Of a stretch of 64,000 nucleotides of DNA, positions 19,812-32,803 are shown one piece after another. Positions within the stretch are counted from its first letter, which is position 1; each line of letters opens with the position of its first letter. The stretch is from NCBI RefSeq assembly GCF_947492365.1, contig NZ_CANLMB010000002.1:496001-560000 (forward strand), given 5' to 3'. Source of the stretch: an uncultured Erythrobacter sp. GTDB taxonomy: Bacteria; Pseudomonadota; Alphaproteobacteria; Sphingomonadales; Sphingomonadaceae. The translations under genes and the position numbers were made by a program. The notes beneath the pieces were generated by a model. It saw nothing but the letters and a program-made list of their open reading frames with translations, was not told the DNA's origin and ran no database searches.

Positions 19812-20372
19812 TCAATTGCCCGGGATAATAGCGAGGCCGGGGCGTTCGATGCGCGCGCGCACCGGGGCCGCATCGCGCGACATGCGCACTGCGATCCAAT
19901 CGCCGATCGCGCCGTTTTCCATCGCCTCACCGCCCTGCTGGACGCTGAAACCGCGCCCGCGAACCTGCACCGCGATCGGATCGCCGCGCGACACGCTGGG
20001 TTCGGCCGCCTCTGCGCGCGCTTGCGGGCGAGTGGCGATGAAGATGCGCCAGCTTTGCGGTCCGGGGCAGGCGACGCGGATGGTCGAGCGGCCATTACCG
20101 TGCCAGGCGAGATCGAGCGGCCCTTCGCAGGCGGCGAGCCGCAAGCGCTGGTCCGCCGGAACGCGCGCGCCGCCGACTTCGCCGATGGGAACGCCGGTAA
20201 ATTCGCGCACCGCGCGGTCAATCTCACCCGGATCGGTAAAGCGCGCGACCGGACTGTTTTGCGCCTCGGCAGCAGCGGCAAAGATCGGCAGGCATGCAAG
20301 CAGTGTAGCCAGCGCGAGAAGCTGGAACTCCTTGCGCGCTGCACTGCGGGCGGCGGTTTCAAGCGGTCTCAT
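19812..20372 (-). CDS. flgA: flagellar P-ring assembly chaperone
   Basis: Periplasmic chaperone that assists FlgI assembly into the P ring. 186 residues with a signal peptide (hydrophobic LLALATLLACLPIFAAAAEA) and an SAF-like C-terminal domain: VSRGDPIAVQVRGRGFSVQ, then GDWIAVRM. I start at MRPLETAARSAARK because the sigma-54 promoter at 20422-20438 lies about 50 bases upstream; the longer frame starting at 20450 would run through that promoter. First gene of the leftward flgA-flgM-flgN operon, 78 bases before flgM. Confidence 0.9.
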   Translation of the reverse strand: MRPLETAARSAARKEFQLLALATLLACLPIFAAAAEAQNSPVARFTDPGEIDRAVREFTGVPIGEVGGARVPADQRLRLAACEGPLDLAWHGNGRSTIRVACPGPQSWRIFIATRPQARAEAAEPSVSRGDPIAVQVRGRGFSVQQGGEAMENGAIGDWIAVRMSRDAAPVRARIERPGLAIIPGN

Positions 20373-20421
20373 ATCAGGTTCCAATCGGTGATGTTTCAGA
20401 CAATTCCGTGTCCTGATGTTC

Positions 20422-20438
20422 TGCAAGCCTTGTGCCAA
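20422..20438 (-). promoter_or_regulatory. sigma-54 promoter of the flgA-flgM-flgN operon
   Basis: Read leftward, TTGGCACA-AGGC-TTGCA matches the consensus at all key positions, with GG and GC separated by exactly ten bases. The -12 element is about 50 bases before the flgA ATG. It lies in the divergent region between flgA and the diguanylate cyclase gene. Confidence 0.85.
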
Positions 20439-20563
20439 TAAGCGCGCCATGGCGGATCGCTGGCTGACTAGGGAGTTCCCGCAGGCACCGGCGAGCCGCG
20501 TATTAAGCCTCTTGCCCTAGGCCGGACCCAGAAAGACAAGAAACGAGGCGCACGAATTCAATC

Positions 20564-21622
20564 ATGGAAATGTCCGCACCGCCCGAAGTGCCCGAAAAGG
20601 ACTCGCCAAGCAGAGCCCGTGATGCCCGGAACGAATTGCTCGATCGTATCCGCGAATTTGTCATGAAGCACGATCTCAATGCCACCGGCTCCAATCTTGC
20701 GGCGATCACCACTGCGCTTTCGGGTTCGAATGCGGCGCTCGCCAAGGCCTTTGCCGCGCGCGAGATTTCAGGCGAGCCGATCGATCAGCGCTGGCTCGAT
20801 ACGGTGGTGCGGCTGGACCCAGAGACCGGCCAACGGATGAATGAGCTTGAGGAGTTGATGGACCGGATGGAATATTCGCTGATGCGTTTTGCCCAGACCG
20901 CCAAAAGCGCGGCAGACGAAACAACCGAGCAGCGCGGCGCGCTTGATGCGCAGCTGCGCGAGATGAAACGGACGGACGGAGACCTGACGCCCCAAGCCGA
21001 AGTTGACCGTGTTATCAGCCTGTCCAAGGTCATGCTCGACCGGTTGGGGCAGGTCGAAATCGCGATGGAGCGCAGTCAGGCCGAATCCGACCAGCTGCGC
21101 GCCAATCTGGCCAAGGCGCGGATCGAGGCAGATGTCGATCACCTGACCCGTCTGCCCAATCGCCGCGCCTTTGAACGCCGTCTGGCTTCGGCGGCTCAAG
21201 AGGCGCAATTGTCAGGCAAGCCGCTTTGCGTCGCCTTTTGCGATGTCGATCATTTCAAGTCGATCAACGACACGCATGGGCATGATGCGGGCGACCGCGT
21301 TCTGGTCACGATCGCAAGCCTGCTCAATGGCAATGCCAGCGATGAATGCTTCGTCGCGCGCCATGGCGGCGAAGAATTTGTGCTTCTGTTCTACGGGCTC
21401 GATGCCGATGCGGCTTTCAACAAGCTCGACGGAATTCGCAGTGCGCAGGCGATGAAGCAATTGCTCAACCGAGAGAATGGCAAGCCCTTTGGCAAGGTTA
21501 CATTCTCCGGCGGGATCGCAACCGTGAACTCGATCGAGGATATGCGCGACGCGCTGGGCCGGGCCGATGCGGCGCTGTATCAGGCCAAGGAAAATGGTCG
21601 CAACCAGATCATGGTGATCTAG
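20564..21622 (+). CDS. diguanylate cyclase (GGDEF domain)
   Basis: Makes cyclic di-GMP from two GTP. Of 352 residues, the C-terminal GGDEF domain (about 190-352) has DHLTRLPNRRAFERRL, FCDVDHFKSINDTHGHDAGDRVL, the active-site GGEEF at 268-272 and GRADAALYQAKENGRNQI, so it should be active. The usual RxxD inhibitory site before the motif is absent. The N-terminal 180 residues are helical and soluble, with no recognised sensor domain. It sits inside the flagellar island, divergent from flgA, which suggests control of motility. The start MEMSAPPEVPEK is the first ATG in frame. Confidence 0.92.
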   Translation: MEMSAPPEVPEKDSPSRARDARNELLDRIREFVMKHDLNATGSNLAAITTALSGSNAALAKAFAAREISGEPIDQRWLDTVVRLDPETGQRMNELEELMDRMEYSLMRFAQTAKSAADETTEQRGALDAQLREMKRTDGDLTPQAEVDRVISLSKVMLDRLGQVEIAMERSQAESDQLRANLAKARIEADVDHLTRLPNRRAFERRLASAAQEAQLSGKPLCVAFCDVDHFKSINDTHGHDAGDRVLVTIASLLNGNASDECFVARHGGEEFVLLFYGLDADAAFNKLDGIRSAQAMKQLLNRENGKPFGKVTFSGGIATVNSIEDMRDALGRADAALYQAKENGRNQIMVI

Positions 21623-21636
21623 CGCCTTATTGCTCG

Positions 21637-22068
21637 TCAGAGCTCCGTTTCCGGATCGATTATCGGAGCGTCATAGGCGAGGCTGGCATAGATATCGCTG
21701 CTGTCGGCGCGGCTTAAAACCACTCTGACAGCAAATCCGCTTTCACTTGCTTCGCTGGCCAAGGCTTCGGCGTCACGCCAGATTTGCGAGCGCTCACTCG
21801 CGGCGAAGCGGGCAAAGACGGTCAAAGTAGCGCGCCCGTCCGCCGGACGTTCGGCGAGCCATTGCGAAAGTGACGGACCGCGCGGGTCAGGCCGGAAGAG
21901 CGCTTGTGCTGCTGCGATTTGCGGAGCCTCTGTCTCAGGAGCCTCTGCCTCAGGGGCCTCTCCATCATGGCCTTCCTCAACGGCCAGCGCTGACAGAGTC
22001 ACCAGAAACAGGATCAGGGCAAGGTCGGCAAGGATCAGTTGCCAGCTTTGGGCATGGCGGACGATCAT
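21637..22068 (-). CDS. MotB/ExbD-like single-membrane-span protein without an OmpA domain
   Basis: 143 residues starting at the ATG that overlaps the upstream MotA-like gene (ATGA). Residues 8-28 form one membrane helix, SWQLILADLALILFLVTLSA. Its Trp9, Ala14 and Asp15 have the same spacing as in the MotB of this window (AWKVAYADF), so Asp15 would be the proton-carrying residue. An acidic Glu/Ala/Pro linker (about 32-55) leads to an 85-residue periplasmic part (RATLTVFARFAASERSQIW, GFAVRVVLSRADSSDIYA) that is not the OmpA-type peptidoglycan-binding domain. I do not recognise that part. It probably forms an ion channel with the partner gene, but whether it turns the flagellum or does something else is open. 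Confidence 0.7.
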   Translation of the reverse strand: MIVRHAQSWQLILADLALILFLVTLSALAVEEGHDGEAPEAEAPETEAPQIAAAQALFRPDPRGPSLSQWLAERPADGRATLTVFARFAASERSQIWRDAEALASEASESGFAVRVVLSRADSSDIYASLAYDAPIIDPETEL

Positions 22069-22754
22069 GCCGCATCCTGAACCGGAGTGATCGAGCGTGT
22101 GCTGCCGCCGGTCAGCTCTGCATCGAACCATTCAAGCAGATCCGCGCGCACTTCTTCCTCGCGTTCGCCGCGGCGCTCGATTGCGCGGGCGAGCGGGATG
22201 CAGACAAGGTTGGCGGTCAGCACTCCGTAAAGCGATGACAGAACCGCCGTCCCGACCGCTGCCATGGTCACTTCAGCTGCGCTTCCCGTAGCAGACGGCG
22301 CAAGCTGGGTAATCGAGAACAAGGTGCCCACCAGGCCGAAGACCGGAGCCAGCTCGCCGGCAAATTCGAACACGCGCACAGCCTGCGCCATGGCGATTTC
22401 GCGGTGCGCGCGCTCGGCTCTGGCGGTGGAATGGAGCAGGTCGAGCGAGCCGGAGACGACATAGGCATCGACCAGCCGCGCGGTTGCCGGGTCGGGCGGG
22501 GTGGAGGTCTCTGCGCAAAGGTGCCCGCGCTTGGCAATCGCGCTGACACTGCGGGCCAGGGCAGCGCGGTTGGCGTCTTCGTCGAACGTGCGTTTGCCGA
22601 GCCGGATCAATGCGCGCCCGGCGGCCCTGATCTCGCGCCCTCCGCAGCGGGCGATGGTGGCGAGAAATGTTCCGGCCAGCACGACCACCAATGCCGCAGG
22701 ATCGAAAAACCCCTCCAGAATCCCTCCGGAGCTTGCGGCGGTCTCGCTCAACAT
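22065..22754 (-). CDS. MotA/TolQ/ExbB-family proton channel protein
   Basis: The 229-residue membrane protein has the MotA/ExbB family layout: helix 1 at about 14-33 (FFDPAALVVVLAGTFLATIA), a cytoplasmic helical part, then the signature FAGELAPVFGLVGTLFSITQL (about 130-150) and VGTAVLSSLYGVLTANLVCIP. The start LVVVLAGTF.AT resembles MotA/PomA more than ExbB, but the first MotA helix appears to be missing. It precedes and overlaps a MotB-like gene and is divergent from flgB. True motA and motB lie at 30952-32803, so this is a second stator-like pair. AAGGAG precedes the ATG by nine bases. Confidence 0.8.
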   Translation of the reverse strand: MLSETAASSGGILEGFFDPAALVVVLAGTFLATIARCGGREIRAAGRALIRLGKRTFDEDANRAALARSVSAIAKRGHLCAETSTPPDPATARLVDAYVVSGSLDLLHSTARAERAHREIAMAQAVRVFEFAGELAPVFGLVGTLFSITQLAPSATGSAAEVTMAAVGTAVLSSLYGVLTANLVCIPLARAIERRGEREEEVRADLLEWFDAELTGGSTRSITPVQDAA

Positions 22755-22930: not shown

Positions 22931-22947
22931 TTGGCACGCATGCTGCA
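22931..22947 (+). promoter_or_regulatory. sigma-54 promoter of the flgB operon
   Basis: TTGGCACG-CATG-CTGCA matches the sigma-54 consensus except C for T at the first base of the -12 element; GG and GC are ten bases apart. The flgB ATG is 51 bases downstream. This promoter would drive flgBCDEFGHIJKL, motAB and the two genes after them. Confidence 0.85.
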
Positions 22948-22997: not shown

Positions 22998-23351
22998 ATG
23001 AACGAGCAGATCTTTGGCATCCACGGCGCCGCGCTCGAACTGCGTTCGCAGCGTATGGGCGTGCTCGCTTCGAACATCGCCAATGCGGCAACTCCGGGTT
23101 TCAAAGCGCGCGATATCGATTTCAACGCTGCGCTTGATGCGCGGCTTTCCTCGTCACGCAGCGGCGACATGATGGCGGGCGAGCCGGAAATGCTGTTCCG
23201 CCGCCCGACCATGCCCAGCCTTGATGGCAACACGGTCGAGCTGGGGCGCGAGCAGGTCGCCTTTGCCGAAAACGCGCTCGCCTACTCCGCAACGCTCAGC
23301 TTCGTGCAGGGCAAGGTCAACACGATCACCCGCGCGCTGAAAGGGGAATGA
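22998..23351 (+). CDS. flgB: flagellar proximal rod protein FlgB
   Basis: 117-residue proximal rod subunit, normal length. Shows the rod-protein N-terminal signature RMGVLASNIANAATPGFKA and the FlgB C-terminal helix ALAYSATLSFVQGKVNTITRAL. Exported without a signal peptide and assembled with FlgC and FlgF on the MS ring. First gene after the sigma-54 promoter; three bases separate its stop from the flgC ATG. Confidence 0.96.
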   Translation: MNEQIFGIHGAALELRSQRMGVLASNIANAATPGFKARDIDFNAALDARLSSSRSGDMMAGEPEMLFRRPTMPSLDGNTVELGREQVAFAENALAYSATLSFVQGKVNTITRALKGE

Positions 23352-30951: not shown

Positions 30952-31815
30952 ATGTTTGCCGCAATCGGTATCGTAGTTCTGATCGTCCTGGTGTTTGGCG
31001 GCTTTGTGCTGGCGGGCGGGGCGTTGGGGCCGGTTCTCGCCGCCTTGCCGCTTGAAATGATGATGATCGGCGGGGCCGCGCTAGGCGCGACCATAATCGG
31101 CAATTCCATGCACGAGATCAAACTGCTCGGCGGCGGTCTTGGCAAGGTGTTCAAAGGGCAAAAATACACCGACGAAGATCATATCGACGCCATCGCGCTC
31201 ACCAGCAAGCTGATGAAACTGATGCGATCGGAAGGGGCGGTCGCGCTCGAAAGCCATGTGACTGAACCCGAGAACTCAACCGTTTTCAGCGAATATCCGC
31301 GCCTGCAAAAAGACCCGGTCGTGGTCGATATGATCTGCGATCCGCTGACTTTGATGGTGGTGTCGTCGGGAACGCTCGACACCCATGCGGTCGAGGATGT
31401 GATCGACAATGCGATCAAGACCCAGCTGCACGAAATGCACGAGCCCGAACATGCGATCCAGTCGCTCGCCGATGCGTTCCCGGCATTGGGTATCGTCGCG
31501 GCTGTGCTGGGTGTGATCAAGACGATGGGTTCGATCAACGAACCGCCCGAGGTTCTGGGCAAGATGATCGGCGGCGCGCTGGTCGGCACGTTTCTGGGCG
31601 TGCTGCTGGCCTATGGATTTGCCGGGCCGATGGCCGCTCGGCTGAAACAGATCAACGCGCATGACGAACAGATCTTCCACACGATCAAGCAGGTCATCAT
31701 TGCCAGCCTCCACGGCTATCCGCAGCCAATGGTGCTCGAGGCCGCGCGTTCGGGCCTGCCGCCTGCGCACCGTCCGAAACTGACCGAATTGCTCGACGCG
31801 ATGCGGGGCAAGTGA
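30952..31815 (+). CDS. motA: flagellar motor stator protein MotA
   Basis: 287-residue four-helix stator subunit. Membrane helices at about 1-25 and 30-55, a large cytoplasmic loop with PLTLMVVSSGTLDTHAVEDV, then helices with ADAFPALGIVAAVLGVIKTM (conserved Pro) and GGALVGTFLGVLLAYGFAGP. Residues HEIKLLGGGLGKVFKGQKY are typical of MotA of the LafT/proton type. One base separates its stop from motB. It works with MotB to couple proton flow to torque on FliG. Confidence 0.96.
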   Translation: MFAAIGIVVLIVLVFGGFVLAGGALGPVLAALPLEMMMIGGAALGATIIGNSMHEIKLLGGGLGKVFKGQKYTDEDHIDAIALTSKLMKLMRSEGAVALESHVTEPENSTVFSEYPRLQKDPVVVDMICDPLTLMVVSSGTLDTHAVEDVIDNAIKTQLHEMHEPEHAIQSLADAFPALGIVAAVLGVIKTMGSINEPPEVLGKMIGGALVGTFLGVLLAYGFAGPMAARLKQINAHDEQIFHTIKQVIIASLHGYPQPMVLEAARSGLPPAHRPKLTELLDAMRGK

Positions 31816-31816
31816 G

Positions 31817-32803
31817 ATGGCGAAAGAGGCAGTCGCTGAACCGCCAGCCGAGATTCCGGCACCGATCATCGTCAAGAAGATCACGATTGAAGGTGGAGGC
31901 CATCACGGCGGCGCTTGGAAGGTGGCCTATGCCGACTTCGTGACCGCGATGATGGCGTTCTTTCTATTGCTCTGGCTGCTGGGTGCGACAGAGGAAAACC
32001 AGCGCAAGGGCATTGCCGACTATTTCGCGCCAACCCTGGTCAAGACCCGCCAGCAAAGCGCAGGTTCTGACGGCATGTTGGGCGGCAGCTCGATCACTGA
32101 TGTCGATAATTACCCCAACCGTCAGGGCCAGACCGGCACCCAGTCGATGACTGTTCCGCGCGGCGCGCAGGGCGGGCCGGTCGAAGGCGGCGGTCGGGGT
32201 GAGGCCGATGTGGAGCGGGTGCGCGACCTGCGCGAAGCCATTGATCGAAAGCTCGCGGAGCAGCGCGAACTCTCTCACCTCGCCAATCAGGTCCGCGTGA
32301 TGCGCGCGCCTGATGGCATCAGGATTGATCTGGTCGATGATGCGGACTTCTCGATGTTCTCGCTCGGCACCACGATCCTCACCGACGATGCGCGCGGGCT
32401 CCTGGAGATCATCGGAGAGGCGATCTCGGACCAACAAAGCCCGCTGATCCTGCGCGGTCACACAGATTCGCTGCCGTGGCGGTCAGGCGTTGTTGCCAAC
32501 AATTGGTCGCTCTCCGCAGGCCGCGCAGAGGCAACGCGCCAGCAGCTGATCCTCGGCGGCATTCCGCAGGGCCGCTTTGCCCGGATCGAAGGGGTTGCCG
32601 ATACCGAGCCGCTGATCGCTGATGATCCCGCCGACCCGCGCAACCGCCGGATTTCGCTGCTGTTGCTTAACGAGCCGCGCGAGCGGGTCAGGCCCCGCCC
32701 GAGAACTCCGCCTGCTATTCCGCCGGCAGAGGCTCCGCCTCTCGAGCGCCCTCAGCAAACCGCCCTAAGGGATAGCGCGGAGGCTGCTGCTCCGACCCCG
32801 TAA
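31817..32803 (+). CDS. motB: flagellar motor stator protein MotB
   Basis: 328 residues. A short N-terminal cytoplasmic part leads to one membrane helix, AWKVAYADFVTAMMAFFLLL, with the proton-carrying Asp40. A plug/linker region follows, then the OmpA-like peptidoglycan-binding domain (about 175-295) with SPLILRGHTDSLPWRSGVVA, NWSLSAGRAEATRQQLI and DPRNRRISLLL. A Pro-rich tail ends the protein. All functional elements are intact, in contrast to the MotB-like protein at 21637. Confidence 0.96.
   Translation: MAKEAVAEPPAEIPAPIIVKKITIEGGGHHGGAWKVAYADFVTAMMAFFLLLWLLGATEENQRKGIADYFAPTLVKTRQQSAGSDGMLGGSSITDVDNYPNRQGQTGTQSMTVPRGAQGGPVEGGGRGEADVERVRDLREAIDRKLAEQRELSHLANQVRVMRAPDGIRIDLVDDADFSMFSLGTTILTDDARGLLEIIGEAISDQQSPLILRGHTDSLPWRSGVVANNWSLSAGRAEATRQQLILGGIPQGRFARIEGVADTEPLIADDPADPRNRRISLLLLNEPRERVRPRPRTPPAIPPAEAPPLERPQQTALRDSAEAAAPTP

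Follow-up and report, generated by a model that had tools for sequence, protein, structure and literature searches.

Two overlapping genes beside flgB in an Erythrobacter genome, here called A and B, are very probably a flagellar pair derived from PomAB. Our preferred reading, which we hold at a probability of about 0.5, is that they form a flagellum-dedicated, ion-driven PomAB derivative that has converged on a layout like that of ExbBD and TolQR and that acts as an energiser or regulator rather than as a canonical torque unit. The genes lie in what we call the window, the whole 64,000-nucleotide stretch analysed (contig NZ_CANLMB010000002.1, positions 496,001 to 560,000, from an uncultured Erythrobacter sp.). 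The features discussed below are listed in window coordinates.

19812-20450, minus strand: flgA, on the same strand as the pair and downstream of it, with the GGDEF gene between in the window; conserved neighbour in 79/80 loci
20564-21622: GGDEF diguanylate cyclase gene between the pair and flgA, convergent with B and 14 bp from it
21637-22068, minus strand: B gene, 143 aa (open reading frame and translation)
21676-21903, minus strand: B periplasmic domain, residues 56-131, read as degenerate OmpA-like
21904-21966, minus strand: B linker, residues 35-55, no plug helix (AlphaFold2 model, alignment)
21967-22050, minus strand: B transmembrane helix, residues 7-34 (AlphaFold2 model)
22024-22026, minus strand: B Asp15, equivalent to PomB D24 and to Asp40 of the window's MotB; conserved in 63/63
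22065-22068, minus strand: 4-bp stop/start overlap of A and B, ATGA (sequence)
22065-22754, minus strand: A gene, 229 aa, putative PomA-derived subunit
22194-22196, minus strand: A Pro187, equivalent to PomA P199 (TM4); conserved in 79/79
22323-22325, minus strand: A Thr144, equivalent to PomA T158 (ion site); conserved in 79/79, Ala in the window's MotA1
22344-22346, minus strand: A Pro137, equivalent to PomA P151 (TM3); conserved in 79/79
22932-22947, plus strand: sigma-54-type promoter-like site TGGCACGCATGCTGCA of the divergent flgB operon, near-consensus
22998-23351, plus strand: flgB, divergent neighbour; conserved in 79/80 loci (best 80 of 187)
30952-31815, plus strand: canonical MotA (TIGR03818), with Ala/Gly/Thr at PomA T158/T185/T186, H+ type
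31817-32803, plus strand: canonical MotB, MotB_plug and OmpA domains intact

The gene pair and its flagellar setting

Both of the overlapping leftward reading frames that the original prediction had placed at 21637-22754 are present. A was assigned there to the MotA/ExbB family, and it passes the Pfam model PF01618 (MotA_ExbB) above the curated cut-off (E 1.1e-9), with flagellar PomA/MotA models at the top of its NCBIfam matches; the genome holds four PF01618 genes, namely A, MotA and two of the ExbB/TolQ type. A has three transmembrane helices, equivalent to TM2, TM3 and TM4 of PomA, and the absence of the first helix is a feature that the original prediction had missed. B is a MotB/PomB-like partner with one transmembrane helix, an Ala/Pro-rich linker and a small periplasmic domain. 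The MotB-like Trp-x4-Ala-Asp spacing ascribed to its sole helix is indeed found (W9-x4-A14-D15) and recurs in the window's MotB (W34...D40), which is part of the complete motA-motB set foreseen at 30952-32803. Searches of B against Pfam and NCBIfam gave no match of note, and a search for ExbD/TolR (PF02472) in the window's B and 19 relatives gave none.

Searching 150 genomes of the same GTDB family for A yielded 30 strong loci. In all 30 the pair adjoins flgB-flgC-flgD divergently, and on its downstream side lies flgA or, as in the window, a GGDEF gene abutting the pair; B directly follows A in 29, and a contig end interrupts the 30th. In a collection of named genomes we confirmed 187 relatives, the named ones being Sphingomonadales (Erythrobacter and allied members of the order), and fetched the best 80. 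A divergent flgB adjacent to A, a downstream flgA and the presence of B were each found in 79 of these 80 loci, and the 4-bp overlap is kept in 73 of the 79 with B; ton/tol or tol-pal neighbours never occurred at the 80 loci. Since B follows A in 79/80 related loci, the overlap persists in 73 and Asp15 is invariant in a 63-sequence alignment, a chance arrangement can be excluded on sequence grounds. Profile searches set the A family apart from canonical MotA (E below 1e-22 versus above 1e-14), and in the genomes sampled the pair is confined to one GTDB family of Sphingomonadales.

We used FlgC type as the marker of the flagellar system in each genome, replacing a linkage count based on the joint presence of A and FliF. 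All 66 genomes with a three-helix A carried the window-type flagellar system, and none of the 64 genomes without that system had a three-helix A (Fisher p 7e-25, a statistic that ignores relatedness). The proposed flagellar association of a MotA/MotB-family pair thus held up, as did the expectation of co-occurrence with flagellar genes: homologues lie beside flgB and flgA, not tonB or tol. Weak A matches in three genomes (G007, G053 and G057), which have long frames and only a distant FlgC type, were left out; we read them as four-helix PomA of another flagellar system. Two FlgC types, with ~50-67% and ~30% identity to the window's, were seen in each of six genomes (G006, G021, G044, G072, G124 and G140), which appear to have two flagellar systems each and the pair with only one of them.

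Of 86 genomes that have this flagellar system, 20 lack the pair, which is therefore not required for having the system and counts as a dispensable accessory of it. Most of the 14 pair-less loci examined have flgA directly upstream of flgB. At one locus without the pair (L204 of G086, ~1450-2700), the gap between flgA and flgB is filled by other secreted-protein-like reading frames, which we suspect to be FlgP/FlgT-like.

A sigma-54-type site lies upstream of flgB in 79/79 loci, where about one would be expected in shuffled sequence. No sigma-54 promoter was found for the pair itself, such sites facing A in 8/79 loci versus 79/79 facing flgB. Further upstream of the flgB site is an inverted repeat, TTGCAGG...CCTGCAA, at which an activator might act on the pair as well.

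This setting bears on whether the pair is a regulator or ion-motive-force sensor, doing no mechanical work but linking motor assembly or gene expression to ion flow or to the energised state of the membrane. The pair is located among flgA, flgM and flgN, and that position would suit such a role, as would its dispensability and the GGDEF gene that adjoins it tail to tail in the window and has matches in 17/80 related loci (best 80 of 187). However, the GGDEF gene converges on the pair rather than sharing its transcript, and most loci lack it; the pair has no output domain, and a whole ion path would be costly to keep for sensing alone. We regard pure sensing as quite improbable, while a modulator role, one of the options first offered, is conceivable.

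Ancestry of the two subunits

A profile built from 24 A proteins matched Vibrio-type PomA in the PDB with an E value of 1e-43 and TolQ with only 2e-3; it aligns to residues ~25-221 of PomA (8bri), starting at residue 23-25, past TM1. The AlphaFold2 model of A (pLDDT 89.6; helices 12-16, 19-53, 59-76, 89-101, 104-149 and 159-219) had PomA and MotA chains as its top 23 Foldseek matches (TM 0.63-0.74, best PomA 8brd), while TM scores against ExbB/TolQ were only ~0.4-0.5. In a tree, the reduced A group (100/100) fell with the intermediates described below and with four-helix PomA, apart from ExbB/TolQ, the ExbB/TolQ and MotA1 rows being on very long branches and the root unsure. These comparisons make a solid case that A is a PomA descendant and not an ExbB or TolQ.

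TM1 is missing in all pair members examined. A mis-called start concealing it was considered and rejected: several orthologues have in-frame stops 2-9 codons upstream of the start, and the shortest stop-to-stop frames, at 219-229 codons, are too small to encode the helix as well. Of 37 alphaproteobacterial PomA proteins outside the family, 35 extend 15-38 residues further at the N-terminus, and the frames of the remaining two have space for such an extension. PomA relatives in other families of the order or class match at E values no better than 2e-48. The nearest four-helix relatives of A in the class are orphan PomA proteins of other Alphaproteobacteria, which differ from A in having TM1 and R88, in lacking an adjacent B gene and in their locus. 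These orphan genes, seen in other families of the order or class (L165, 3694-4470; L168, 3873-4637; also L180, L185, L188 and L189), lie between fliN and flbD in the order fliF-fliG-fliH-fliN-pomA-flbD-flhA. A may descend from the orphan PomA found at this locus, the tree with its unsure root and long MotA1/ExbB branches not being decisive.

For B, neither a direct comparison of window-type B with canonical MotB nor a sequence search of window-type B against the PDB found anything, and its link to PomB and OmpA runs only through intermediates. These occur in the same GTDB family, where the slot between flgA and flgB holds a three-helix A and a longer B with a MotB/PomB-like helix and an OmpA-like domain. 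One set of intermediate B proteins (n=11) matched Pfam OmpA in 10/11 and MotB_plug in 5/11; a second (n=4) matched both in 4/4, and its best PDB match was PomB (E 2e-11), covering the helix-plug region and the OmpA domain. Window-type B matched this second set with an E value of 4e-9 over nearly its full length. When the periplasmic domains of window-type and intermediate B were compared alone, the E value was 8e-6 and the score 33.7, whereas the highest score among 60 column shuffles was 12.8.

The AlphaFold2 model of B (pLDDT 87.8) has a periplasmic domain of the order strand-helix-strand-helix-strand-strand, as expected for the OmpA type. A search of 20 window-type B members for Pfam OmpA gave no match. 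The original prediction had left the 85-residue periplasmic domain of B unrecognised; the intermediates mark it as degenerate OmpA-like. We accordingly set aside a new fold as first choice, the intermediates and the profile match pointing instead to a decayed OmpA domain. Pfam matches of single B members to unrelated families were single and weak and were taken as chance. Across 63 B sequences there is no conservation at the positions where OmpA domains carry their ligand-binding Asp and Arg, and the helix residues Asp15, Leu20 and Phe21 never vary; the domain could nonetheless bind peptidoglycan weakly. Across the family, an Ala/Pro-rich linker of 15-52 residues with no predicted helix replaces the plug.

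The best, though weak, fold match of the B model was the peptidoglycan-binding domain of SiiA (6qvp, E 0.017). SiiAB, the proton-channel pair of Salmonella SPI4 type I secretion, is likewise a MotAB-like pair in an envelope task; it differs in being non-flagellar, we saw no close sequence similarity, and its SiiA domain binds peptidoglycan.

The pair and ExbBD/TolQR, energisers driven by the proton-motive force, have in common a three-helix A, a short plug-less B with an Asp helix, and a small periplasmic domain on a linker, a gross layout that might suggest recruitment of an ExbBD/TolQR-type pair to the flagellar cluster from outside. But A is placed with PomA, outside the ExbB/TolQ group, by sequence, fold and tree; B lacks an ExbD/TolR match and is tied by the intermediates to PomB and OmpA; and the neighbours are flgB and flgA, never ton or tol. 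Recruitment is therefore highly improbable, and the likeness in layout appears to be convergent. Because A descends, on this evidence, from PomA, the suggestion of an ExbBD-like energiser recruited to the flagellum was mistaken about origin; about working mode it may yet be right, given the three-helix A and the short B without plug or anchor.

Ion path, torque charges and selection

The pair keeps the ion path of PomAB, the Na+-driven stator of Vibrio and others (8brd, 8bri and 8zyv). The Pro and Thr of TM3 and TM4, D31 and glycines are shared with PomA: the equivalents of PomA P151, G154, G157, T158, Y188, G189 and P199 are invariant in 79/79 window-type A proteins, in which the T186 equivalent is Thr or Ser and that of D31 nearly always Asp. 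B, like PomB, keeps the W-x5-Asp helix at a flagellar locus. H+-type stators have Ala at the T158 and T185 positions. The Na+ site of PomA consists of T158, T185 and T186, all of them essential (PMC6677748, PMC10374538). At these three positions the window's A has Thr, Ser and Ser, and its MotA Ala, Gly and Thr, so by residue type A reads as Na+-type and the genome's MotA as H+-type; the pair may accordingly prefer Na+.

The features associated with torque are different. R88, D114 and E96 of Vibrio PomA are indispensable for motility (PMC10374538). The window's A has A74, E82 and V100 at the positions of R88, E96 and D114; among 79 window-type A proteins the R88 equivalent is Arg in only 37 (versus 37/37 four-helix alphaproteobacterial PomA), that of D114 is replaced throughout, that of E96 is E or D in 37, and that of E97 is Pro in 55. 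The cytoplasmic helices are present and the charges of the FliG-facing interface have moved, with new ones at R/K63 (79/79), D88 (79/79) and R118 (74/79). Relative to PomAB, then, the pair has lost TM1, the plug, a functional peptidoglycan-binding motif and most canonical torque charges, has gained new conserved charges in A, and has a B of half the length of PomB. With the H+-driven MotAB encoded separately in the window it has family, A-B gene order and a flagellar cluster in common, but it belongs to another subfamily than this TIGR03818 MotA and lacks the TM1, plug, anchor motif and torque charges of MotAB.

Could the pair nevertheless be an accessory stator that docks onto this motor's C-ring and adds torque, perhaps from Na+ beside the H+-driven MotAB? 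Such a unit would have a re-tuned rotor interface (R/K63, D88, E90, R102 and R118) and be anchored through another protein. The PomA ancestry of A, an intact Na+-type ion site beside an H+-type MotA, strict linkage to one flagellar system and the conserved charges at new cytoplasmic positions all argue for it. It is weakened by the lack of conservation of the torque charges R88, D114 and E96, the first and second being Ala and Val in the window, and by a B with neither plug nor peptidoglycan-binding Asp and Arg. This option of the original prediction thus keeps ancestry and ion site in its favour, and on balance we think it unlikely.

Flagellar stators ("FIT") have been defined by four features, a four-helix A, a torque interface, a plug and an OmpA anchor, reported as consistently conserved (PMC12505986). 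In the pair, A has three transmembrane helices where that definition has a square four-helix domain, and its torque-interface charges are gone; B is without the plug/linker and OmpA anchor features. What the pair shares with stators is an A within MotA/PomA, an ion-binding Asp in B, and the Pro and Thr of TM3 and TM4 in A. ExbB and TolQ work without an equivalent of TM1. In PomA the ion path runs alongside TM1 (PMC10374538), and conduction by A could suffer from the lack of this helix.

By the Nei-Gojobori method, applied to sequence pairs with dS below 2, dN/dS is ~0.16 in A and ~0.21 in B, where the helix segment has 0.13 and the remainder 0.26; flgB/flgC have 0.07-0.08. Both genes of the pair are thus under purifying selection. 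This bears on the view that the pair is a decaying relic of an old PomAB stator without present function, a view suggested by the progressive loss of domains, the clean loss of the pair in 20/86 systems, a degenerate A without B in L052 and a truncated A in L129. Against it stand these low ratios, the fixation of new residues, and the conservation of invariant channel residues and the 4-bp overlap across dozens of genera, and we judge it very improbable. Besides the copies just named (L052 is from G019), one locus has an A profile match in two pieces (L038 of G080), and in another member of the G019 genus (G106, L200) flgA and flgB are immediate neighbours.

Proposed working mode

Under our preferred reading, a PomAB-type stator would have been reduced within one Sphingomonadales lineage while remaining in the flagellar cluster, losing PomA TM1, the plug, most of the linker and the OmpA peptidoglycan-binding residues and changing its FliG-facing charges, with the ion path retained. 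In the usual 5:2 arrangement, five A subunits would surround a B dimer. Ion flow past Asp15 of B and Thr144, Ser173 and Ser174 of A, a Na+-type site, would still drive relative rotation or a conformational cycle. The output would pass neither through the canonical FliG torque contact nor through a wall anchor; as in ExbBD/TolQR or SiiAB, it may reach an envelope partner of the flagellar system by way of the small domain that B carries on an Ala/Pro linker, or alternatively a cytoplasmic partner through the new fixed charges of A. Those same charges are a point against this reading, as they could represent a re-tuned FliG contact.

The most economical job for the pair is probably to energise a step in the envelope or in the assembly of this flagellum, a role that we assign tentatively. 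More speculative still is the fuller picture of a stator that evolved back to a generic, Na+-type, plug-less and anchor-less 5:2 energiser powering such a step beside an H+-type MotAB.

In the open-access papers searched we found no description of the A-B pair, and a 2025 survey of MotAB evolution does not mention sphingomonads (PMC12505986). The family itself is familiar; new are its reduced form and the confinement of that form to the flagellum. One sphingomonad lineage has dropped or rewired all four stator features stepwise, leaving living intermediates and, beside flgB, an ion channel still under selection. The pair is a natural experiment for separating the stator parts that carry ion flow from those that generate torque, and it makes testable whether a flagellum needs a second, non-torque, ion-driven motor.

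Together with MotAB, the pair suggests mixed Na+/H+ energisation of one flagellar system. MotA1 was also present in 67 of 69 genomes with A matches, a count made before the FlgC refinement. In one near-complete, single-contig genome (L012 of G037) the intact pair and flgBCD are retained, but no MotA1 was seen and FliF matched only in fragments; its flagellum may be decaying, or the case may hint at a function independent of MotAB.
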